Below, piece by piece: positions 44,048-54,527 of a stretch of 64,000 bases of DNA. A program made the position numbers and the translations under genes. Origin of the DNA: Haloglomus litoreum (GTDB lineage: Archaea; Halobacteriota; Halobacteria; Halobacteriales; Haloarculaceae). Each line of letters starts with the position of its first letter. Within the stretch, counting starts at the first letter, position 1. Below the pieces are notes generated by a model. That model saw nothing but the letters and a program-made list of their open reading frames with translations, was not told the DNA's origin and did not search any database. Where the stretch lies: the NCBI RefSeq assembly GCF_029338515.1, contig NZ_CP119988.1, forward strand, positions 1,860,001 to 1,924,000, in the 5' to 3' direction.

Positions 44048-44734
44048 ATGAGTGACGAACAGCAGAACACCGTCATCGGCACCGCCTTCGAACTGCAGCG
44101 CAACACCCTGAAGCTCGGCCAGCGCGCGCTGGAGCAGACCGCGGAGACCCGCCGCAGCTTCAACGACCTCGTCCTCGGCGGCCTGGAGACACAGGAGGAG
44201 GCCCAGAAGCGCACCCTGGAGTTCAGCCAGGAGTCCATCAACAGCCTGCTCGACGCCATCGAGGAGAACGTCGACGGCTCCGAGGACACCGTCCAGGACA
44301 TCCGCGACGCCGTCGACGAGGGCTTCGAGGACATCCAGGAGCAGCAGGGTGAGCTGTTCGAGTCGCTCTCCGAGCGCTACGACCCCGACGAGCAGGACGT
44401 CAAGCCGCTGAGCGAGGAGTTCCTCGACGCACTCAACGAGCAGCTCGACTTCCTCATCCAGGCCAACGAGGAGCTCGAGGGCGCCACCGTCGACACGTTC
44501 GAGGAGGTCCTCGACCGACTGGAGGAGCTGCAGGACGAGTACGAGAACCAGGGCGAGGAGTTCCAAGAGCAGTTCGAGGACCAGCTCGACCGGTTCCAGG
44601 ACCAGTTCGAGCAGCGACTCGACCGGCTCCAGGAGGTCCAGGACCGCTTCGAGCAGCTGCAGGAGGAGGTCGAGGAGGACCTCGAGGAGATCGAGGACTC
44701 GCTGGACGACGTCGAGATCGACGACGAGGAGTAG
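44048..44734 (+). CDS. Acidic coiled-coil protein, phasin-like
   Basis: 228 residues with almost no Cys, Trp or membrane segment. The first 85 residues are amphipathic helix (TAFELQRNTLKLGQRALEQTAETRRSFNDLVLGGLETQEEAQKRT); the last 75 are Glu/Gln/Arg heptads (EEFQEQFEDQLDRFQDQFEQRL) predicting a long coiled coil. The amphipathic opening resembles granule-surface phasins (PhaP), and haloarchaea store PHA, but the resemblance is weak. A structural or scaffold protein is the safest call. It seems monocistronic and has an unusually strong ribosome binding site. Confidence 0.7.
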   Translation: MSDEQQNTVIGTAFELQRNTLKLGQRALEQTAETRRSFNDLVLGGLETQEEAQKRTLEFSQESINSLLDAIEENVDGSEDTVQDIRDAVDEGFEDIQEQQGELFESLSERYDPDEQDVKPLSEEFLDALNEQLDFLIQANEELEGATVDTFEEVLDRLEELQDEYENQGEEFQEQFEDQLDRFQDQFEQRLDRLQEVQDRFEQLQEEVEEDLEEIEDSLDDVEIDDEE

Positions 44735-44947: not shown

Positions 44948-46105
44948 ATGGACGGAACCAACGGCGTTACGGTGCTGGTTGTAGCGACACTCCTTCTCGG
45001 GTCGATCGCCGGTGTTGGACTGGTCGCCGCGGAGGACTTCCCCAGTGCGACCGACGGGGATATCTCGAACGGGGAGGAGCTGAAGGCCGCGGAGGACGAC
45101 GATGACCAGGTCAAGGACATCAACTACACCTTCGTCATCGCCGACCACACGCCGGGCAAGGAGGTCGACGCCAGGCACTTCGCGGTGGGGCTGACCGAGA
45201 ACGCGACGCTCCACCGGATCAAGCTCTACAGCGAGGACTTCGGGTACAGCAACTGCGAGCCCGACAACACGGCCGCGTTCGGTATCGACCGGAAGGACAA
45301 CGACCCCGGGACGAACACGGACGTTTCGCTGCTGACCTCGTTCAAGAGCTACACCTCCAAGGAGGACTTCATCGACATCAAGTACTACAAGGAGGAGAAG
45401 CTCGCGGGCAGCCCCATCGGCGGGTCGGTCTACGACCAGATCGTCGCGGCACAGAACGGCTGCTACGACAACCCATCCGAGCCGGGCTGGTACCGCATCA
45501 ACGGTACCATCACCGGCTCCTCGAACGGCGACACGACGACCGACTACAAGATCCGTGACCTCTCGCAGTGGATCTACATCTGTGACTGCTCCTCGCGGGC
45601 CGAGGCCGAGCAGACGCTGGGCCCGCCGCCGGGGCAGGACGGCGACGGTGACGGCGGCTCCGACGGCGGTTCCGGCGGCAGCAGCACCCCGACCGCGACG
45701 CCCACGCCGACCGCGACGGAGACAGCGTCGAGCGGTGGGTCGGGCGAGTCCACGCCGACCGCGACGGCGACGGCCACGCCGACCGCGACGGCGACGGCCA
45801 CGCCGACCGCGACGGCGACCGCCACACCGGGCGATGGTGACGGTAGCAACGACGGCAGCGACGGCGGTGGCGGGAGCGGCGCCGGAACGAGCACGGCGAC
45901 TGCGACGGCCGCGTCCGGTGGGGGCGGCTCCGGAGGGGGTGCGAGCGCAGCCACGGCGACCGCCACCGCGGCCCAGCAGCCGGCACAGGATGGCGCCGGC
46001 GGACCGCCCTCGACGCCGACGGTCGGTGCTGGTCCCGGGTTCGGGTTGCTGACGGCCCTCGGGGGCGCACTGCTGGCCGGACTGCTGGCGCTCCGGCGCG
46101 ACTGA
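44948..46105 (+). CDS. Secreted PGF-CTERM surface protein, tandem family copy 1
   Basis: 385 residues. A Sec-type signal (about 1-27, VTVLVVATLLLGSIAGVGLVAA) is followed by an acidic conserved core (28-230) with four Cys: SNCEPD (103), GCYDNPSEPGWYRINGTITG (172) and ICDCSSRAEAEQTLGPPPGQ (212 and 214), possibly two disulfides. NYT, NAT and NGT are N-glycosylation sequons. A Thr/Pro/Ala/Ser/Gly stalk (about 230-350) suits O-glycosylation. The tail AGPGFGLLTALGGALLAGLLALRRD is a PGF-CTERM-type signal, so archaeosortase A would be expected to replace it with a lipid anchor. I do not recognise the core domain. Confidence 0.85.
   Translation: MDGTNGVTVLVVATLLLGSIAGVGLVAAEDFPSATDGDISNGEELKAAEDDDDQVKDINYTFVIADHTPGKEVDARHFAVGLTENATLHRIKLYSEDFGYSNCEPDNTAAFGIDRKDNDPGTNTDVSLLTSFKSYTSKEDFIDIKYYKEEKLAGSPIGGSVYDQIVAAQNGCYDNPSEPGWYRINGTITGSSNGDTTTDYKIRDLSQWIYICDCSSRAEAEQTLGPPPGQDGDGDGGSDGGSGGSSTPTATPTPTATETASSGGSGESTPTATATATPTATATATPTATATATPGDGDGSNDGSDGGGGSGAGTSTATATAASGGGGSGGGASAATATATAAQQPAQDGAGGPPSTPTVGAGPGFGLLTALGGALLAGLLALRRD
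45751..45822 (+). repeat. Three tandem 24-bp repeats in the stalk of surface protein 1
   Basis: Unit CACGCCGACCGCGACGGCGA plus CGGC repeats three times (third copy with one change), encoding TPTATATA units. In-frame repeat copy number would change stalk length. Confidence 0.8.
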
Positions 46106-46218
46106 GTACCGCCCGCCGGCCTCCACCGGCCTGTCGTCCTGTAACGACGGTTGATAAATGGTCCTCTGACTACTTACAGAACATTCAACCTGTTCTTTAC
46201 CGTTCAACGAGTGACTCG

Positions 46219-47367
46219 ATGAGTGCTAGTGCACGGCAGCGGACGGTACTCGCGACGGTCGCACTGCTGGTGGTCGCGTCGGTCGCGGGAGTCGGTCTCG
46301 GCGCGACCGCGGACTCTCCGAGTGCGACGGACGGGGACGTATCGAACGGTGAGGAACTGAAGTCGGCCGAGGACGACGACGACCAGCTCCTCGATACCAA
46401 CTACACGTTCGTCCCCGCGAACCACCAGCCCGGTGCGGAGGGGTCGGCCCGCCACTTCGCGGTGGGGCTGACCGAGAACATCACCCTCCATCGGATCAAG
46501 CTCTACAGCGAGGCCATCGGGTACAGCAACTGCGAGCCCGACAACACCAACGCGTTCGGCATCGACCGTGGCAACGACGACCCGGGGACGGGGACGGACG
46601 TCTCGCTGCTGACCTCGTTCAAGAAGTACACCTCCGAGGAGGACTTCATCGACATCAAGTACTACAGGGAGGACAAGCTGGCCGGGGGTCCCATCAAGTT
46701 CTACACCGTCGACCAGGTCGTCGCCGGCCAGTCCGGCTGCTACGACAACCCATCCGAACCGGGCTGGTACCGCATCAACGGCACCATCACCGGCTCCTCG
46801 AACGGCGACACCACGACCGACTACAAGGTCCGGGACCTCTCCGGCTACTTCTACGTCTGTGACTGCTCCTCGCGGGCCGAGGCCGAGCAGACCCTGGGGC
46901 CGCCACCGGGCCAGGGCGGCGACGGCGGCGACGGCGATAGTGGCGGTTCGGGCACGCCGACGGCCACCGCGACTGCTACCGCGACGCCCGGGAGCGAGGG
47001 CGGCAGCGACGGGACCGCGACAGCCACATCGACCGGTACGGCCACGGTGACGAGGAGCGCCACTCCGACCGCCGACCCGACGGCCACCGCGACCGTGACA
47101 CCCACCGCGACCGCCACGACGGAACGCTCGGCCTCGGGCAGCGGTGATGGGAACGGCGGAGCGAGTCCCACGGCGACAGCCACGGCGGGCGGCGCGGGCG
47201 GGTCCGGGGACACGACCACGGCGACCCGCAGCGGCCAGGCCCGTCAGGACGGCAGTGCCGATGGGGCGCCACGGACACCGACCGTCGGCGCCGGCCCCGG
47301 CTTCGGCGTCGGTGCGGCCCTCGTCGGTGCCCTGGTGGCCGGGCTGCTCGCACTGCGTCGGGATTGA
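46219..47367 (+). CDS. Secreted PGF-CTERM surface protein, tandem family copy 2
   Basis: 382 residues. Signal peptide about 1-28 (RTVLATVALLVVASVAGVGLGA). The core is very close to copy 1: SATDGDVSNGEELKSAEDDDDQ, FAVGLTENITLHRIKLYSEAIGYSNCEPDNTNAFGIDRG, GCYDNPSEPGWYRINGTITG and YVCDCSSRAEAEQTLGPPPGQ, so all four Cys are kept. The stalk is Thr/Ala/Ser/Gly-rich. The end TPTVGAGPGFGVGAALVGALVAGLLALRRD is a PGF-CTERM-type signal. Preceded by TTGATAAATG (46151-46160), TTCTTTACC and GAACATTCAA. Separate promoter from copy 1 likely (113-nt gap). Confidence 0.85.
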   Translation: MSASARQRTVLATVALLVVASVAGVGLGATADSPSATDGDVSNGEELKSAEDDDDQLLDTNYTFVPANHQPGAEGSARHFAVGLTENITLHRIKLYSEAIGYSNCEPDNTNAFGIDRGNDDPGTGTDVSLLTSFKKYTSEEDFIDIKYYREDKLAGGPIKFYTVDQVVAGQSGCYDNPSEPGWYRINGTITGSSNGDTTTDYKVRDLSGYFYVCDCSSRAEAEQTLGPPPGQGGDGGDGDSGGSGTPTATATATATPGSEGGSDGTATATSTGTATVTRSATPTADPTATATVTPTATATTERSASGSGDGNGGASPTATATAGGAGGSGDTTTATRSGQARQDGSADGAPRTPTVGAGPGFGVGAALVGALVAGLLALRRD

Positions 47368-47560
47368 GTCCCGCCGTCGGACGCCGGGACCGGGCTACCG
47401 TAATGAAACGGCCATTCATACGGGGCTCCGCTCGGATCGTCTGGTCGCGGTACCTGTCGCCACAGCCCATCTGGGGGCCTCTCCGAACCGTTCACAAAAG
47501 TACCCCTCTCATGTGAAGGCAAATCTCGATGACGGTTTCCCCGTTCGTTGACGACCACGT

Positions 47561-48739
47561 ATGCACGGGAACGGGACGACACGCACACTCGTCGTGGCGG
47601 GGGTCCTCGTCCTCGCGTCGGTGGCCGGGGCAGGACTCGTGGCCGCGGAGGACTTCCCCAGCGCGACCGACGGGGACGTCTCCAACGGCGAGGAGCTGAG
47701 AGCGGCCGAGGACGACGACGACCAGGTCTACGAGATCAACTACACCTTCATCCTCGAGAACCACCAGCCGGGCTACGTCGATGGCGCGGCGGAGCACTAC
47801 GCGACCGGACTGACCGAGAACGGGACCCTCTACCGCATCAAGCTGGTCTCCGACGACTTCGGGTTCTCGAACTGCGAGCCGAGCGACGCCAGTGCCTTCG
47901 GCATCGATCGGGGCAACAACGACCCGGGGACGAACACCGACAAATCCCTGCTGACGGCGTTCAAGACCTACACCTCCGAGGAGGACTTCATCGATATCGT
48001 CTACTACCGCGAGTCGCAGCTGGCGGGTGAACCGGTCCGGGGCAGCGTCCACGACCAGATCGTCGCGGCACAGAGCAACTGCTACGACAATCCGTCCGAG
48101 CCGGGGTGGTACCGCATCAACGGCACCATCACGGGTCACGTCGACTCCGACGCCAGCGGGACGGACACGGACTACGTGATCCGTGACCTCTCGCAATGGG
48201 TCTACGTCTGTGACTGCTCCTCGCGAGCCGAGGCCGAGCAGACGCTGGGCCCGCCGCCGAGGCAGGACGACGACGGTGGCAGTGACGGCGACTCCGGTAG
48301 CGGCGGCTCGAGTACGCCGACACCGACGGCGACGCCGACGTCGACCCCCGGAAGCGACGCCGATAGCGGTACCGTGACGGCCACCGCGACGCCGACACCC
48401 ACCCTGACCGCGACCGCGACACCCAGCAACGACGGGAGCGGTAAGGCGGGAGCCACCACCCCGACCGCCACGCCCGGCAATGGTGGGGCCGGCGGTGATG
48501 GCGGGACAGATACCCCGGTCGAGACGGCGCCCGCGACGAGCGCCGGCGGAACTGACGGTGGAGCCGCCGACACCGCGACCGCGACCGTGACTGCGACGAA
48601 CGGCGGTACCGGCGCTGGCGGCGGTTCCGCAGCCGATGGGGTCCGGACCCCGACGGCCGGGACCGGTCCGGGCTTCGGCGCGGCCGCAGCGGTCGCCGGA
48701 CTGCTCGGGGCAGGGCTGCTGCCCCTCCGTCGGGACTGA
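47561..48739 (+). CDS. Secreted PGF-CTERM surface protein, tandem family copy 3
   Basis: 392 residues. Signal about 1-28 (RTLVVAGVLVLASVAGAGLVAA), then EDFPSATDGDVSNGEELRAAEDDDDQ as in copies 1 and 2. The core keeps FSNCEPSDASAFGIDRGNNDPGTNTDKSLLTAFKTY, NCYDNPSEPGWYRINGTITG and YVCDCSSRAEAEQTLGPPP. A short insert HVDSDASG sits where copies 1, 2 and 4 read an SSNGDTTTDY-like turn. The stalk is longer and Gly-rich with PTPT segments. The PGF-CTERM-type end AGTGPGFGAAAAVAGLLGAGLLPLRRD is present. GAACCGTTCA lies upstream at 47485-47494. Confidence 0.85.
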   Translation: MHGNGTTRTLVVAGVLVLASVAGAGLVAAEDFPSATDGDVSNGEELRAAEDDDDQVYEINYTFILENHQPGYVDGAAEHYATGLTENGTLYRIKLVSDDFGFSNCEPSDASAFGIDRGNNDPGTNTDKSLLTAFKTYTSEEDFIDIVYYRESQLAGEPVRGSVHDQIVAAQSNCYDNPSEPGWYRINGTITGHVDSDASGTDTDYVIRDLSQWVYVCDCSSRAEAEQTLGPPPRQDDDGGSDGDSGSGGSSTPTPTATPTSTPGSDADSGTVTATATPTPTLTATATPSNDGSGKAGATTPTATPGNGGAGGDGGTDTPVETAPATSAGGTDGGAADTATATVTATNGGTGAGGGSAADGVRTPTAGTGPGFGAAAAVAGLLGAGLLPLRRD

Positions 48740-48908
48740 CCGCGACGGGACCGTCGTCTCCCGGGGCCCGCTTCCTGTCCTGGGAAGCGAATCCCTTCCG
48801 GGCTCGTCCGCCAGCCCATTCGAGATCGAACGGGGGTCGAGTAAAAACAAGCCGTCAGGTGACGGGGCAATATGCTTCCGTCTCACGCCACGGTTTGGGC
48901 GTGAAACG

Positions 48909-50036
48909 ATGTGGTGGAACGACGGGCCGACAGTACTGGTAGTAGCGACACTCGTCCTCGCGGCACCGCTCGGTGCGCTCGCGGCGACCCCCCTGGCGGT
49001 GGGGCCGGCGGGCGCGAGTGCGGCCGCCGCGTCGCCACACGGCGCCGACGCGAACTTCACGGCGACGCTCGACAACCACGCCCCGGGGACCACCGACGCG
49101 AACAACTACTACGCGGCGGGGCTCCGCGAGGAGATGCAGGCGATGCACACCATCGTCCTCTCCTCCCAGGCGTTCCAGTTCGACAGCTGCAGCTCCTCGA
49201 AGGTCCGCGCGTTCGGCCTCGACCGGGGGAACGACGACCCGGGGACCGAGACCGACGAGAGCCTCCTCTCGGCGTACAAGCGGATCGTCTTCGAGAAGCA
49301 CCAGATCACGGTGAAGTTCTACAAGGAGGAGAAGCTCGCGGGCGAACCGGTCGCGGTCGCCCCCGAGGACCAGATCGTCGCCCGCGGCGACAACTGCATC
49401 CAGACCCCGTCCGAACCGGGCTGGTACCAGATCGACGGCAAGATCAACGGCAGCACCAACGGCGACACGACGGCGGACTTCTCGCAGTCGACGACCAGTC
49501 ACTACGTCTACGTCTGCGACTGCTCCTCGCGCGCCGAGGCGGAGGAGCAACTCGGCCCGCCGCCGGGCCAGGACGGCACGGACGACGGGAGCGACGAGGG
49601 CTCGACCACGGCGACACCGACCGCCACGCCGACGCCGGATCGCGGCGGCGGTTCCGGCGGGAGTGCCACCCCGACGGCCACCCCGACGGCCCCCCCGACC
49701 GCGACACCGACCGCGACACCGACCGCGACGCCGACCGAGACCGACGCCGGCTCCAGCGGCTCGGGTGACGGTGGCTCCGGCGGTAGCGCCGGGACGACCA
49801 CCCCGACCGCGACGACCACCAGCGATGGGGGGGATGGTGGCTCCGGCGGTGGCGGCCCGGGCGGGGAAGATGGTGGCTCCGGTGGGGCGAGCCCGACGGC
49901 GACGACCGCCGGCGGTGACGGCTCCAGCGGTCCCGGTCCGGCGACACCGACCGCCGGTGCCGGGCCGGGCTTCGGGGCCCTCGCGGCCCTGGGTGGACTG
50001 CTCGCGGCGGCGCTCCTCGCGTTCCGGCGCGACTGA
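48909..50036 (+). CDS. Secreted PGF-CTERM surface protein, tandem family copy 4 (divergent)
   Basis: 375 residues, the most divergent copy. The N-terminus MWWNDGPTVLVVATLVLAAPLGALAA is a signal peptide, followed by a different acidic-poor linker. The core keeps the pattern: FDSCSSSKVRAFGLDRGNDDPGTETDESLLSAYK, NCIQTPSEPGWYQIDGKINGSTNGDTTADF and YVYVCDCSSRAEAEEQLGPPPGQ, so the four Cys are conserved although SNCEPD is lost. The stalk contains PTATPTATPTATPTETD repeats, then Gly/Ser. End AGAGPGFGALAALGGLLAAALLAFRRD, PGF-CTERM type. Start fixed by the signal peptide; upstream in-frame sequence runs into copy 3. Confidence 0.83.
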   Translation: MWWNDGPTVLVVATLVLAAPLGALAATPLAVGPAGASAAAASPHGADANFTATLDNHAPGTTDANNYYAAGLREEMQAMHTIVLSSQAFQFDSCSSSKVRAFGLDRGNDDPGTETDESLLSAYKRIVFEKHQITVKFYKEEKLAGEPVAVAPEDQIVARGDNCIQTPSEPGWYQIDGKINGSTNGDTTADFSQSTTSHYVYVCDCSSRAEAEEQLGPPPGQDGTDDGSDEGSTTATPTATPTPDRGGGSGGSATPTATPTAPPTATPTATPTATPTETDAGSSGSGDGGSGGSAGTTTPTATTTSDGGDGGSGGGGPGGEDGGSGGASPTATTAGGDGSSGPGPATPTAGAGPGFGALAALGGLLAAALLAFRRD

Positions 50037-50154: not shown

Positions 50155-50973
50155 TCAGTCCTCGGAGCCGAGGTAGGCCTTCCGGACCGCGGGGTTGTCG
50201 GTGATCTCCTCCGGCGTCCCGTCGGCGATCTTCTCGCCGAAGTTGATGACGATGGCCCGGTCGATGAGCTGGAGCAGGCCACGCATGTTGTGGTCGACGA
50301 CGATGAACGTCGTCCCGTCCTGTCGGAGGTTCTCCATCAGCTCGGAGAGCTCCGCGACGTCGGGGCCCGCGAGCCCCGCGAACGGCTCGTCGACCAGCAT
50401 CAGGTCCGGGTCGGTCGCCAGCGCCCGTGCGATCTCCAGCCGGATCATGTCCGCGTGGGGCAGCTCGTCCGGGAGCTGGTGGAGCCGGTCGCCGAGCCCG
50501 ACGCGCTGGCAGATCTCCACCGCACGGGCCTTCGTCCGCCCGCGCAGCCCGGAGGTCGAGAACAGCTTGTCCGGCACCAGCGAGATCTGCACGTTGCTGA
50601 CGACGGGTCGGTCCTCGAGCGGCCGGAACTCCTGGAACGTCCGGGCCATCCCGTTCTGGACCATGCCGTAGAAGCTCGAGCCCGTCACGTCCCTGCCGTT
50701 GTAGTAGACGTTCCCCTCGGTCGGGGGGTAGACGCCCGTGATGCAGTTGAACGTCGTCGACTTGCCGGCGCCGTTCGGGCCGATGAAGCCGAGGATCTCC
50801 TGCTCCTCGACGGCGAACGAGAGGTCGTCGACGGCCACGAGCCCACCGAACCGCTTGGTGAGGCCGTCGGCCACCAGCACACCGTCGTCGGGACCGTACT
50901 GGCGGTCCGGATCGGTGACGCCGTGTGTGGCGTCGGCCGTCGAGGACTCGCCGTCCGGGGTGTCGGTGCTCAT
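50155..50973 (-). CDS. livG: Branched-chain-amino-acid-type ABC transporter ATPase (LivG) with degenerate signature motif
   Basis: 272-residue nucleotide-binding subunit. Walker A GPNGAGKST (65-73), Walker B LMLVDEP (191-197), H-loop VVDHNM (H228) and the LivG-type ending PEEITDNPAVRKAYLG are normal. At the signature, where LivG proteins have LSYGQQRRLEIARAL, it reads ELPHADMIRLEIARAL (about 170-185), so LSxGQ is absent although the following helix is kept. Last gene of a four-gene operon on this strand; a LivF partner is not found. A start at 50973 overlaps the permease stop by 4 nt. Confidence 0.9.
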   Translation of the reverse strand: MSTDTPDGESSTADATHGVTDPDRQYGPDDGVLVADGLTKRFGGLVAVDDLSFAVEEQEILGFIGPNGAGKSTTFNCITGVYPPTEGNVYYNGRDVTGSSFYGMVQNGMARTFQEFRPLEDRPVVSNVQISLVPDKLFSTSGLRGRTKARAVEICQRVGLGDRLHQLPDELPHADMIRLEIARALATDPDLMLVDEPFAGLAGPDVAELSELMENLRQDGTTFIVVDHNMRGLLQLIDRAIVINFGEKIADGTPEEITDNPAVRKAYLGSED

Positions 50974-52229
50974 GGTCGGTCACCCCGGTCGTCGTCGAAC
51001 AGCTCACGCAGCTCCTCGGTCCAGTTCTCGACGACCGTCCGCAGCGGCGGCTTCCCGCGTCCGCGCGCGTCCCGTCGGCGCTCCGCGGCCCTGGGCTGCC
51101 CGCCGTCGGCGGTGGGTTCGCCCCCGAACTGGCCACGGATGCGGTCCTCGATCTGGCTACCCGCCCGGAGCATCCGCGGCAGGATGCCCTCGGGCAGGAA
51201 GAACAGGAACACCAGCGTCACGATGGCGAACAGCAGGAAGTAGATGTCCGCCACCGGGACGCCGACGACGGGGACGGTCGTCTCCACGCCCCGGAGGGTG
51301 TCCCGGAGGATGTGGAAGAACAGCCCGCCGATGGCGGCACCGACGATGGTGCCCATGCCGCCGAGGATGGAGGCGACGATGATCTCGATGCTGATGACCA
51401 GCGCGATCAGCTGGCTGGGGTTCGCGATGCCGGTCAGGAACGTGTGGACGTAGATGGCGCCGGCCAGGCCGCCCACGAGTCCGGACAGGACGAACGCGAA
51501 GATCTTGAACTTCGCCGGGTTGAGGCCGGCCGCCTCGACCGCCAGTTCGTCCTCACGGATGGCCGTCAGCACGATGCCCGCGTCCGAGCGGGTGAACAGC
51601 AGGAACACCGCCAGCGCCATGACGAACACGCCGAACCCGATGACGTAGATCTCCACCGTGTCGGTGGTGAGTGTGCCGGCGCCGAGCAGCCCGGTCGCTC
51701 CCCCGGTTATCTCCGGCCAGAAGACGAACAGGCGGAGCACGATGATGGGTGCCACCAGCGTCACCAGCGAGAAGTACGGGCCCTGCAGCCGGAGCGACGG
51801 GACGCCGATGAGCAGGCCGATGAGTCCCGCGACGAGCATCCCGAGGGGGATGGTAACGAACAGACTGAGTCCGAGCTGCGTGTGCAGAATCGCGCTCGAG
51901 TAGGCACCGCCGCCGAAGAAGATGGCGTGCCCGAAGCTGATCTCCCCCGTGTAGCCCGAGACGAAGTCCCAGGTCATCGCGAACACGGCGAAGAACATCG
52001 CGCCGGTCAGCATGTCCAGCAGCAGCGAGTCGACGGTGAACGCGAAGAACCCCACGTCGATGCCGTACCCCTGGGCGACCGGGAGGAGACCGAGCACCAG
52101 GAGCCCCACCAGCCCGAGCTTGTGCCGCGTCGGCAGCGTGACCGGGTTGATGAGGTCCAGGAGGGACCGCTCCTCGTTGCTCAGCTCCGACTCCGCCTCG
52201 GCCGTTTCGGTTGTTGATGCTTCTGCCAT
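50970..52229 (-). CDS. livM: Branched-chain-amino-acid-type ABC transporter permease (LivM)
   Basis: 419 residues with about ten hydrophobic helices. YTGEISFGHAIFFGGGAYSSAI, RLQGPYFSLVTLVAP and AIREDELAVEAAGLNPAKFKIFAFVLSG are LivM motifs, the last being the ATPase-contact loop. FLPEGILPRM ends the membrane part. An additional charged tail (about residues 355-419, rich in Arg/Asp/Gly) is cytosolic and not typical. Located between LivH (2 nt upstream) and LivG (overlap), so it is in the middle of the operon. Confidence 0.93.
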   Translation of the reverse strand: MAEASTTETAEAESELSNEERSLLDLINPVTLPTRHKLGLVGLLVLGLLPVAQGYGIDVGFFAFTVDSLLLDMLTGAMFFAVFAMTWDFVSGYTGEISFGHAIFFGGGAYSSAILHTQLGLSLFVTIPLGMLVAGLIGLLIGVPSLRLQGPYFSLVTLVAPIIVLRLFVFWPEITGGATGLLGAGTLTTDTVEIYVIGFGVFVMALAVFLLFTRSDAGIVLTAIREDELAVEAAGLNPAKFKIFAFVLSGLVGGLAGAIYVHTFLTGIANPSQLIALVISIEIIVASILGGMGTIVGAAIGGLFFHILRDTLRGVETTVPVVGVPVADIYFLLFAIVTLVFLFFLPEGILPRMLRAGSQIEDRIRGQFGGEPTADGGQPRAAERRRDARGRGKPPLRTVVENWTEELRELFDDDRGDRP

Positions 52230-52231
52230 GG

Positions 52232-53104
52232 TTACTCGACGAGTTCACGGCCGAACAGGCCCTCGGGTTTGACCATCAGCACGATCACGAGCACGATGAG
52301 TGCCGAGACGCCGGTCAGGCGCGAACTGATGAACGATACAGTCAGCTGGTCGAGCAGGCTGATGAGGTAGGCCCCGATGACGCTCCCGCGGATGGAGCCC
52401 AGGCCGCCGACGATGACGATGGAGAACGACAGCAACAGCGGGTTCCGACCCATCAGGGGGTTGGCGTTCTGGAACGACGCCAGGAAGACGCCGGCCAGCG
52501 CGGCCAGCGCCCCGGCGATGATCCAGGTGTAGGTGTAGGACCGCTCGGCGTTGATGCCGACGAGGGACGCGCCCCGCGTCGACATACTGGTCGCCAGGAT
52601 GGCCTTCCCCGTCCGCGTCTCGTTGACGAAGTAGAACAGGGCTCCGATGACCACCCAGGAGACGGCGAAGATGACGAGCCGGTTCGCCGAGATGCCGATG
52701 CTGCCGATGTTGACCGTCCCATCGACCAGGTTCGGGACGACCACGGGCTGGGCCGTCTCGAGCGCGAGGAACACCTGCTCGACGATGAGCGACACCACGA
52801 GTGTCAGTATCAGCACCGACACCGGGTTGTCCGTGACGAACCGGATCATCCCCTTCCAGAGGAGGAGGGAGAACAGGCCGCCGACCACCAGCGCCAGGAG
52901 CGGGGCGAGGAGGATGGTCGAACCCCCGAGGATGTCCGTGTTCGCGAGGTAGAACGCACTGTACGCACCGATGGTCAGGCTGGCACCGTGGGCCAGGTTC
53001 AGGACCCCTCCGACGCCGAAGATGAGGGTGAAACCTGTCGCTACCAGTGCGTACAACGCCCCCAGCAGGAGTACGTTGATGCCGACGGAGACTAGGGAGG
53101 CCAT
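52232..53104 (-). CDS. livH: Branched-chain-amino-acid-type ABC transporter permease (LivH)
   Basis: 290-residue permease with about eight helices. GINVLLLGALYALVATGFTLIFGVGGVLNLAHGASLTIGAYSAFYLA is the LivH opening; MSTRGASLVGINAERSYTYTWIIAGALAALAGVFLA is the coupling-loop region, and IVIVGGLGSIRGSVIGAYLISLLDQL the C-terminal signature. The ATG at 53104 is one base after the binding-protein stop. Function: membrane path for a LivK-type substrate (amino acids, urea or short amides); specificity cannot be told from the permease. Confidence 0.93.
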   Translation of the reverse strand: MASLVSVGINVLLLGALYALVATGFTLIFGVGGVLNLAHGASLTIGAYSAFYLANTDILGGSTILLAPLLALVVGGLFSLLLWKGMIRFVTDNPVSVLILTLVVSLIVEQVFLALETAQPVVVPNLVDGTVNIGSIGISANRLVIFAVSWVVIGALFYFVNETRTGKAILATSMSTRGASLVGINAERSYTYTWIIAGALAALAGVFLASFQNANPLMGRNPLLLSFSIVIVGGLGSIRGSVIGAYLISLLDQLTVSFISSRLTGVSALIVLVIVLMVKPEGLFGRELVE

Positions 53105-53105
53105 T

Positions 53106-54527
53106 CTAGTTGACCCAGGGTGGGGACTTGTACTCGGCTTGTGCGAACCGGTCAGGGTAGATCGGCACCTGGACGCCCTCACCGTTCTCGTCGGTCTGCC
53201 ACTGGAAGTAGACGCCGGGGACGCCCTCCTCGTCGGCCGCGAATGACGGGACCACGTCGTGCGGGTAATCCGCGTCCTTTCCGAAGAACTTGACCGTCCC
53301 GGTCGTTCCGGTGTACTTGGTCTTCTCCATCTGGGAGACCAGCGTGTCGCTGTCGACCGTTCCGGCCGCCTCGATGGCACTCTTCAGGACGCCCATCGCG
53401 TCCGCCGTGATGTACCCGGTGTACACCGGAAGCCGGTCGTACTTGTCCTGGTAGGCCTGCGCGAACGGCTGGGTCTTGTCCGTGATGGGCGAGTTCGCCA
53501 CCGCGGAGGTGAGGCTGAACGTCGCGATGGAGGCGCCCTTGGTCGCCTCGAAGTACGACGGGAACTGCGTCGGCACGTGGATGCCGCCGAAGCCGAACGG
53601 GCGCTGGTTCTTCGCCCACTGCACCAGCGCGTTGGTGCCGGTGTGGGCCAGCCCCACGACGACCCCGTCGATGTTCTTGTTCTCGAACTGGTCGTAGATG
53701 GGGTTGAAGTCCTGGGTCCCCTCGGCCACGACCTCCGTCTGGACCAGCTCGACACCGGTCCGGCTCTCGAGGTTCGACCGCAGGTCGTCGACGTAGGTGC
53801 CGGTCCACTCGAAGTCCTCGGCGAGGAGGGCCACGCGCTCCCAGCCCATGTTCTCGAACTTGCTCTCGCCGTACGTGAGGACGGACTCCCCGAGGAACGT
53901 CGTGTTGTTCGGCCCGACGCGGAAGAAGTACTTGTTCTTCTCGTAGTTATCGGCGATGCGTGCGGTCGCCTTCTCGGTCGCCGCCCCGGTGCCGAGGAAC
54001 GGGGTCTGAGCGCTCGCGATCTGCCCCAGGAGCGCGACGAGCTGCCCGGAGCCGAAGATGCCGGTCGTGGCGTGGACGCCCTCGCCCTCGATGAGCTCCT
54101 TGTAGACGCTGACCGTGGTGTTCGGGTCGGCCTTGTTGTCCTTGACGATGGTCTCGACCTCGGACCCGCCGATGCCGCCGTTCTCGTTGAACTGCTCGGC
54201 ACGCAGGTTCGCCGCGTCGATGATGGACTGACCGGCGGCCGAGTCCTTCGGACCGATGACGCCAATCTTGATGGGGTCGGGCAGGCTCTCCCCGCCGCCA
54301 CCGCCGTCGCCACCATCGCCGCCGCCACCATCGCCGCCGCCGCCGCCGTCGCCACCGTCACCGCCATCGCCGTCCGAGGGGCCGGTACAGCCCGCGAGGC
54401 CGGCGGCAACACCCGTCGCTCCGAGGCCAGTAACCTTCAGGAAGGTCCGCCTGTTGGAGGGGATGTCCCCCCGCCCGTTCTGTGTCCCGCTTCCGTTCGT
54501 ATCGTGCTGTTTTCCATCGTTAGCCAT
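53106..54527 (-). CDS. ABC transporter substrate-binding lipoprotein, LivK type
   Basis: 473 residues. The N-terminus has a twin-Arg motif (SNRRTFLKVTGLG) and lipobox LAGC, so it is Tat-exported and lipid-anchored. A striking Gly/Asp linker of roughly 30 residues follows. The mature domain is a type I periplasmic-binding fold: IKIGVIGPKDSAAGQSIIDAANLRAEQFNENGGI (LivK-like), VETIVKDNKADPNTTVSVYKELIEGEGV, GTGAATEKATARIADNYEKNKYFFR, and YTGYITADAMGVLKSAIEAAGTVDSDTLVSQME. Ligand class (amino acids, amides or urea) is not fixed. First gene of the operon with LivH, LivM and LivG. Confidence 0.93.
   Translation of the reverse strand: MANDGKQHDTNGSGTQNGRGDIPSNRRTFLKVTGLGATGVAAGLAGCTGPSDGDGGDGGDGGGGGDGGGGDGGDGGGGGESLPDPIKIGVIGPKDSAAGQSIIDAANLRAEQFNENGGIGGSEVETIVKDNKADPNTTVSVYKELIEGEGVHATTGIFGSGQLVALLGQIASAQTPFLGTGAATEKATARIADNYEKNKYFFRVGPNNTTFLGESVLTYGESKFENMGWERVALLAEDFEWTGTYVDDLRSNLESRTGVELVQTEVVAEGTQDFNPIYDQFENKNIDGVVVGLAHTGTNALVQWAKNQRPFGFGGIHVPTQFPSYFEATKGASIATFSLTSAVANSPITDKTQPFAQAYQDKYDRLPVYTGYITADAMGVLKSAIEAAGTVDSDTLVSQMEKTKYTGTTGTVKFFGKDADYPHDVVPSFAADEEGVPGVYFQWQTDENGEGVQVPIYPDRFAQAEYKSPPWVN

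Follow-up and report, generated by a model that had tools for sequence, protein, structure and literature searches.

What do four consecutive genes for secreted, cysteine-bearing proteins contribute to a haloarchaeal cell, and is their place beside an importer operon part of the answer? The genes lie on the plus strand at 44948-50036 of a stretch of 64,000 nucleotides of Haloglomus litoreum (contig NZ_CP119988.1, positions 1,860,001 to 1,924,000), which is the window analysed here. A preliminary description, made from the letters alone, had proposed four tandem paralogues on one strand over this span, and all four are present there, each encoding a signal peptide, a core with four cysteines, a stalk rich in threonine, proline and glycine, and a PGF-CTERM-like tail. 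By architecture the family consists of surface proteins anchored by archaeosortase A (ArtA), and its core is a variant, with cysteines, of a haloarchaeal immunoglobulin (Ig)-like domain that has no name yet. Taken as a whole, we read these proteins as ArtA-anchored, stalked, surface-displayed binding modules, an explanation that we favour with some reservation. The parts of the cluster and its neighbour are as follows.

44948..46105, plus strand: copy 1, full gene, 385 residues; one-to-one orthologues in H. halophilum and another Haloglomus, core identity 91-93 %
45122..45631, plus strand: copy 1 core domain (NYT..LGPPP), cysteines 103/172/212/214, from the alignment and the AlphaFold2 (AF2) model
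45632..46030, plus strand: copy 1 Thr/Pro/Gly stalk, 133 residues, Ser+Thr 34 %
46031..46102, plus strand: copy 1 PGF-CTERM-like tail (GPGFG..ALRRD); no TIGR04126 score at E<=1
46219..47367, plus strand: copy 2, full gene, 382 residues; orthologues in two Haloglomus genomes
46399..46908, plus strand: copy 2 core domain, cysteines 105/174/214/216
46909..47292, plus strand: copy 2 stalk, 128 residues
47293..47364, plus strand: copy 2 PGF-CTERM tail; TIGR04126 25.6 bits, passing the cut-off of 24.5
47561..48739, plus strand: copy 3, full gene, 392 residues; orthologues in two Haloglomus genomes
47738..48259, plus strand: copy 3 core domain, cysteines 105/174/217/219
48260..48664, plus strand: copy 3 stalk, 135 residues
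48665..48736, plus strand: copy 3 PGF-CTERM tail; TIGR04126 23.7 bits against the cut-off of 24.5
48909..50036, plus strand: copy 4, full gene, 375 residues, of a different subfamily; its orthologues in H. halophilum (L046) and Halorarius litoreus (L047) lie at unrelated loci
49053..49565, plus strand: copy 4 core domain, cysteines 94/163/203/205
49566..49961, plus strand: copy 4 stalk, 132 residues
49962..50033, plus strand: copy 4 PGF-CTERM tail; TIGR04126 19.8 bits, under the cut-off
50155..54527, minus strand: livG, livM, livH and livK, a LivK-type ATP-binding cassette (ABC) importer, a neighbour and not part of the family (Pfam PF00005+PF12399, PF02653 twice, PF13458)

The start of copy 4 is the ATG at 48909; a longer, mechanically called open reading frame from 48636 overlaps copy 3. 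Comparison of the regions upstream of the copies gave no convincing common promoter box beyond AT-rich stretches.

Core, cysteines and anchor

In alignment A1 copies 2, 3 and 4 are 69, 65 and 52 % identical to copy 1, and over the core 81, 76 and 48 %. The core landmarks and the order C..C..C-x-C listed in the preliminary description recur in all four proteins, with small substitutions in the motifs: the first landmark reads FGIDRKDNDPGT, FGIDRGNDDPGT, FGIDRGNNDPGT and FGLDRGNDDPGT across the copies, the second PSEPGWYRINGTITG in copies 1-3 and PSEPGWYQIDGKING in copy 4, and CDCSSRAEAE(Q/E)xLGPPP is found in every copy. The core quartet, ending in the C-x-C pair, accounts for all cysteines of the four window proteins. 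Across 39 aligned cores the four cysteines, FG-D, a glycine, an aspartate, GWY and a closing A...G..P are invariant; 35 of these cores have an N-glycosylation sequon at their start, and 27 have one following the GWY strand. We find that the core is under purifying selection, as the ratio of nonsynonymous to synonymous substitution rates (dN/dS) between orthologues is about 0.09-0.22 for the cores of copies 1-3 compared with two relatives; for the stalk it is about 0.25-0.39. Given the high core identity, the orthologues in other species and the purifying selection, the resemblance among the four copies is far beyond chance.

Among 71 distinct members the mature protein carries four cysteines in 65 and six in 6, and an odd number in none. 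This even count throughout makes disulfides likely, and the four core cysteines would then likely form two. In the members with six cysteines the extra ones are paired, both within a single loop or both in the stalk; a divergent member has six in the core region. A gene of H. halophilum (L102:6262-7866, minus strand), divergent from a liv operon, encodes two complete core domains in tandem, with eight cysteines.

All four proteins end in GPGFG, a hydrophobic stretch and RRD, and thus the PGF motif, the hydrophobic helix and the basic end are intact in each copy; this tripartite tail is that described for ArtA substrates (PMC8559796, PMC8875312). In accordance with the proposed processing by archaeosortase A, the genome holds two tandem artA genes (330 and 311 bits, cut-off 75) at 1146429-1148430. 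Each of the four Haloglomus genomes searched has the pair, and both products carry the conserved Cys- and Arg-containing motifs. The curated TIGR04126 cut-off is passed by two of the eight other paralogues of the genome. By analogy with known substrates (TIGR04126, PF18204; for example the Haloferax volcanii S-layer glycoprotein), which share the signal peptide, the Thr-rich stalk, the PGF motif with transmembrane helix and basic tail, and an ArtA in the genome, we infer that the four proteins are exported, carried on a stalk and lipid-anchored in an ArtA-dependent manner. Unlike them, the window proteins have a core with no sequence relationship to the S-layer glycoprotein models, and most copies score under the curated cut-off.

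Fold and relatives of the core

An AF2 model of the copy 1 core, based on 39 sequences, predicts an Ig-like beta-sandwich with the first 24 residues disordered (mean predicted local distance difference test, pLDDT, 80.7; predicted template modelling score, pTM, 0.75). The best structural neighbours obtained with Foldseek and VIA-align are YcnI (Z 9.8), TTHA1873 (9.4), the adhesin domains of UafA, ClfA and ClfB (about 9) and BslA (8.4, Foldseek rank 2), and cohesins, Als3 and SpaD are also among the neighbours. Because these Z values are near background, we claim only the fold class. A viral structure library gave no match at E<=1e-3.

Pfam and NCBIfam searches with the full proteins and 24 cores returned no core match, a PDB sequence profile search with the core returned none, and no description of the family was found in open-licence literature. 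Weak matches to DUF4465 (0.0083), DUF3823 and Phage_TTP_11, each from one member of the 24 cores, were treated as chance. Neither of the two outcomes that the preliminary description had named as refuting it, a strong match of the core to a characterised family or a genome lacking artA, came about. The earlier statement that no described family has this core holds for named families in these resources, but profile-profile comparison links the core to the unnamed haloarchaeal GIDRGND domain (alignment A4; hhalign 97.4 %, E 1.5e-11, 102 columns). Recovery between the two is reciprocal, the A4 profile finding the family in the H. litoreum genome; PDB matches of that profile (E 0.5-2.3) are noise. 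Both share a homologous core stretch (GIDRGND...DEVVVVY...NP..G.Y) and the same stalk and tail architecture, whereas the A4 domain is without cysteines (0 of 19 members), without the CxC extension and without LGPPP, and is broad in haloarchaea where the window family is narrow. On these profiles the core, with its cysteines, is distantly related to a haloarchaeal PGF-CTERM domain that is widespread and lacks Cys. Given that the sister domain has no cysteines, the quartet and the CxC extension arose together, which suggests that the disulfides pin the C-terminal CxC extension to the sandwich. The A4 domain itself (loci L071-L092), unnamed and widespread in haloarchaea, with the motifs GIDRGND and NP..G.Y, merits a family entry.

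The A4 domain also connects the core to DUF2808 (PF10989) and BslA (PF17735): one A4-type protein passes the DUF2808 cut-off (29.7 against 25.3 bits), 13 of the 19 members match DUF2808 weakly, and weak BslA matches occur too, BslA being a structural neighbour of the core as well. These two are known from cyanobacteria and Bacillus, and differ from the window family in having neither PGF-CTERM nor the Cys quartet; no direct DUF2808 match over the gathering score was obtained for the four window proteins or the 24 cores. An unnamed, widespread haloarchaeal surface domain is thereby tied to the BslA/DUF2808 beta-sandwich group, which would aid annotation of many proteins now called only 'PGF-CTERM sorting domain-containing'.

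Range and history of the family

The H. litoreum genome holds 12 family copies at five places, three relatives of the same genus give 9-20 matched stretches each and two genomes of another genus 7-8, so that the lineage-specific expansion suggested earlier is borne out, within a narrow taxonomic range. The family remains unnamed in Pfam and NCBIfam, though some genomes hold a dozen or more copies. In the scan of named genomes only Haloglomus, Halorarius, Natronomonas and two Halobacteriales metagenome-assembled genomes (MAGs) matched; most other genera of the same taxonomic family gave no match, and beyond these results class- and phylum-wide profile searches yielded no more than weak matches, which belong to a different domain of wider range. 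The viral contigs and plasmids searched gave no match, and a mobile-element origin is thus not supported. From the sequences, this is a lineage-specific family expanded by tandem duplication.

In two Haloglomus genomes the orthologues of copies 1-3 are one-to-one and keep their order; at the syntenic place Halorarius litoreus has three other family members and Hr. halobius one. The closest grouping of copy 4 (support 0.998) is with genes of H. halophilum and Hr. litoreus that stand beside a moxR-type gene, outside the cluster. In H. halophilum a copy 3 relative occupies the fourth place of the cluster; in genome G001 this place has a mere remnant with a stop. Copy 4 had been described as the divergent one of four tandem copies; the divergence is real, but on the phylogeny copy 4 is a distinct, older subfamily and not a late tandem duplicate. 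The ancestral copy 4 locus was sought in the H. litoreum genome, where the neighbours of the H. halophilum gene (L046) match weakly, and relocation is not separable from loss and gain. As judged from gene order and phylogeny, the history of the cluster is one of birth and death with block movement. The syntenic copy of H. irregulare (L043:5176-6948) is broken by an in-frame stop and no longer has the first cysteine of CxC; it is either a decayed copy or a draft error.

Possible roles at the cell surface

In the explanation that we favour, a Sec-type signal exports the proteins, ArtA would cut the PGF-CTERM tail and attach a lipid, and a stalk of about 130 Thr/Ser/Pro/Gly residues (128-135 in the four copies, Ser+Thr about one third), probably glycosylated, would space from the membrane an outward-facing Ig-like core of about 170 residues, its CxC extension stapled by two disulfides. 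The core is most probably a non-enzymatic binding module, a role favoured by its sandwich fold, by the strong constraint on it and by the lack of a conserved set of catalytic residues; the family grows by tandem duplication and moves as blocks. Given that the family repeatedly adjoins different LivK-type operons, some members may help to capture or concentrate substrates of the adjacent importers, small molecules or peptides, at the cell surface; of the roles considered this is the most specific. This link to uptake is the least certain step and we regard it as doubtful; the same tentative standing is given to the proposal that stalked, lipid-anchored, disulfide-stapled receptors form a second, outward capture layer handing substrates to the membrane-near LivK lipoproteins of several paralogous importers.

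The window cluster stands tail-to-tail with livG-M-H-K, an arrangement kept in five species (H. litoreum, H. halophilum, H. irregulare, Hr. litoreus and Hr. halobius). A second cluster (L011) faces a different liv operon head-to-head, the LivK of which shares only 29 % identity. Haloglomus, Halorarius, a MAG and Natronomonas all retain this neighbourhood; in Natronomonas the family block lies on the livK strand and ends about 160 bp before livK. In H. halophilum the two-domain member is head-to-head with a third livK, and at a further locus (L103, locus D) IclR, a family member and livK-H-M-G follow one another on one strand. Unexpectedly, up to four different LivK-type operons, of the branched-chain amino-acid class, adjoin family clusters in one genome, among them the operon beside the window cluster. 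Family loci lie within 6 kb of a livK (<=6 kb) in 16 of 42 cases, in 8 genomes, and the random-placement P is 0.00015 for H. halophilum (4 of 9 loci) and 0.010 for H. litoreum (2 of 5). Taken together, the liv neighbourhood modestly favours ligand capture. A comparable known protein is TIGR04281, a PGF-CTERM-anchored ABC substrate-binding protein, likewise ArtA-anchored and tied to an ABC importer; it differs in being the binding protein itself, whereas here livK encodes a separate one, and the match is confined to the tail (15.8 bits, cut-off 325). An operon of one family copy (L013) with polar amino-acid ABC genes was set aside, the arrangement not being conserved at the H. halophilum orthologue.

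Several points weigh against this explanation. The other 26 of the 42 loci are not near livK, and adjoin major facilitator superfamily, helix-turn-helix or other genes; the liv link is post hoc, and loci across related genomes are not independent. Because the window cluster is tail-to-tail with livG, it has no promoter in common with the liv genes. Among the four copies only copy 2 reaches the curated TIGR04126 cut-off, the structural Z values of 8-10 are barely above the background quoted by the tool for such folds, and comparable folds occur in proteins with structural, adhesive, copper-binding and ligand-binding roles alike.

The main rival to capture is adhesion or cell-cell recognition, in which stalked Ig-like domains bind cells, glycans or the S-layer, copies diversify per partner and the liv adjacency is incidental. 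We consider it possible. Als3, ClfA/B, UafA and SpaD are among the structural neighbours, a stalk with a sortase-like anchor is adhesin architecture, and an expansion confined to the lineage, in which each Haloglomus or Halorarius genome has 5 to 9 loci, would suit it. The likeness to the Ig-like domains of MSCRAMM (microbial surface components recognizing adhesive matrix molecules) and Als-type adhesins (ClfA, ClfB, UafA, Als3) lies in a stalked, C-terminally anchored beta-sandwich with Z about 8-9, values that many unrelated Ig-like chains reach; identity is 4-14 %, with no shared motif and no evidence for a dock-lock-latch segment or common descent. Selection on the core between orthologues is moreover purifying and not diversifying, the fold class also occurs in non-adhesins, and repeated adjacency to different liv operons is left unexplained.

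Structural envelope proteins, which would bind no specific ligand and act as S-layer-associated spacers or fill the pseudo-periplasm, are an unlikely reading. Haloarchaeal S-layer glycoproteins typically have PGF-CTERM anchors and Ig-like domains (PMC8559796, PMC8875312), and the tail weakly matches their models; a full-length match to TIGR04216 or NF041335 is absent, however, the 15-21 bits obtained coming from stalk and tail only against cut-offs of 400 and 1100, while the invariance of the GWY/CxC residues and the Cys quartet point to a role beyond that of a spacer, and the taxonomic range is patchy. Least probable is an extracytoplasmic metal site in which the four invariant cysteines, CxC included, hold for example Cu or Zn instead of forming disulfides, since the copper protein YcnI, though the top structural neighbour, matches in general fold only (7 % identity), the invariant columns hold no conserved His/Met set, and extra cysteines that are paired, with a total always even, fit disulfides.

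Returning to binding modules that serve uptake, the repeated importer adjacency makes an extracellular capture role testable. Were the importer link true, haloarchaeal ABC uptake would include a previously undescribed surface capture step, and archaeosortase would gain a clear physiological class of clients beyond S-layer proteins.

Two neighbouring genes deserve mention. Beside the second cluster (L011:5228-6316, minus strand) lies a conserved gene for a putative membrane protein of 362 residues, found in Haloglomus, Halorarius, Natronomonas and one further genome (G018), with no Pfam match over the cut-off. Just upstream of copy 1 in the window (44048-44734, plus strand), and syntenic in Haloglomus, a gene encodes a long coiled-coil protein of acidic composition, whose weak matches are apolipoprotein/phasin-like.

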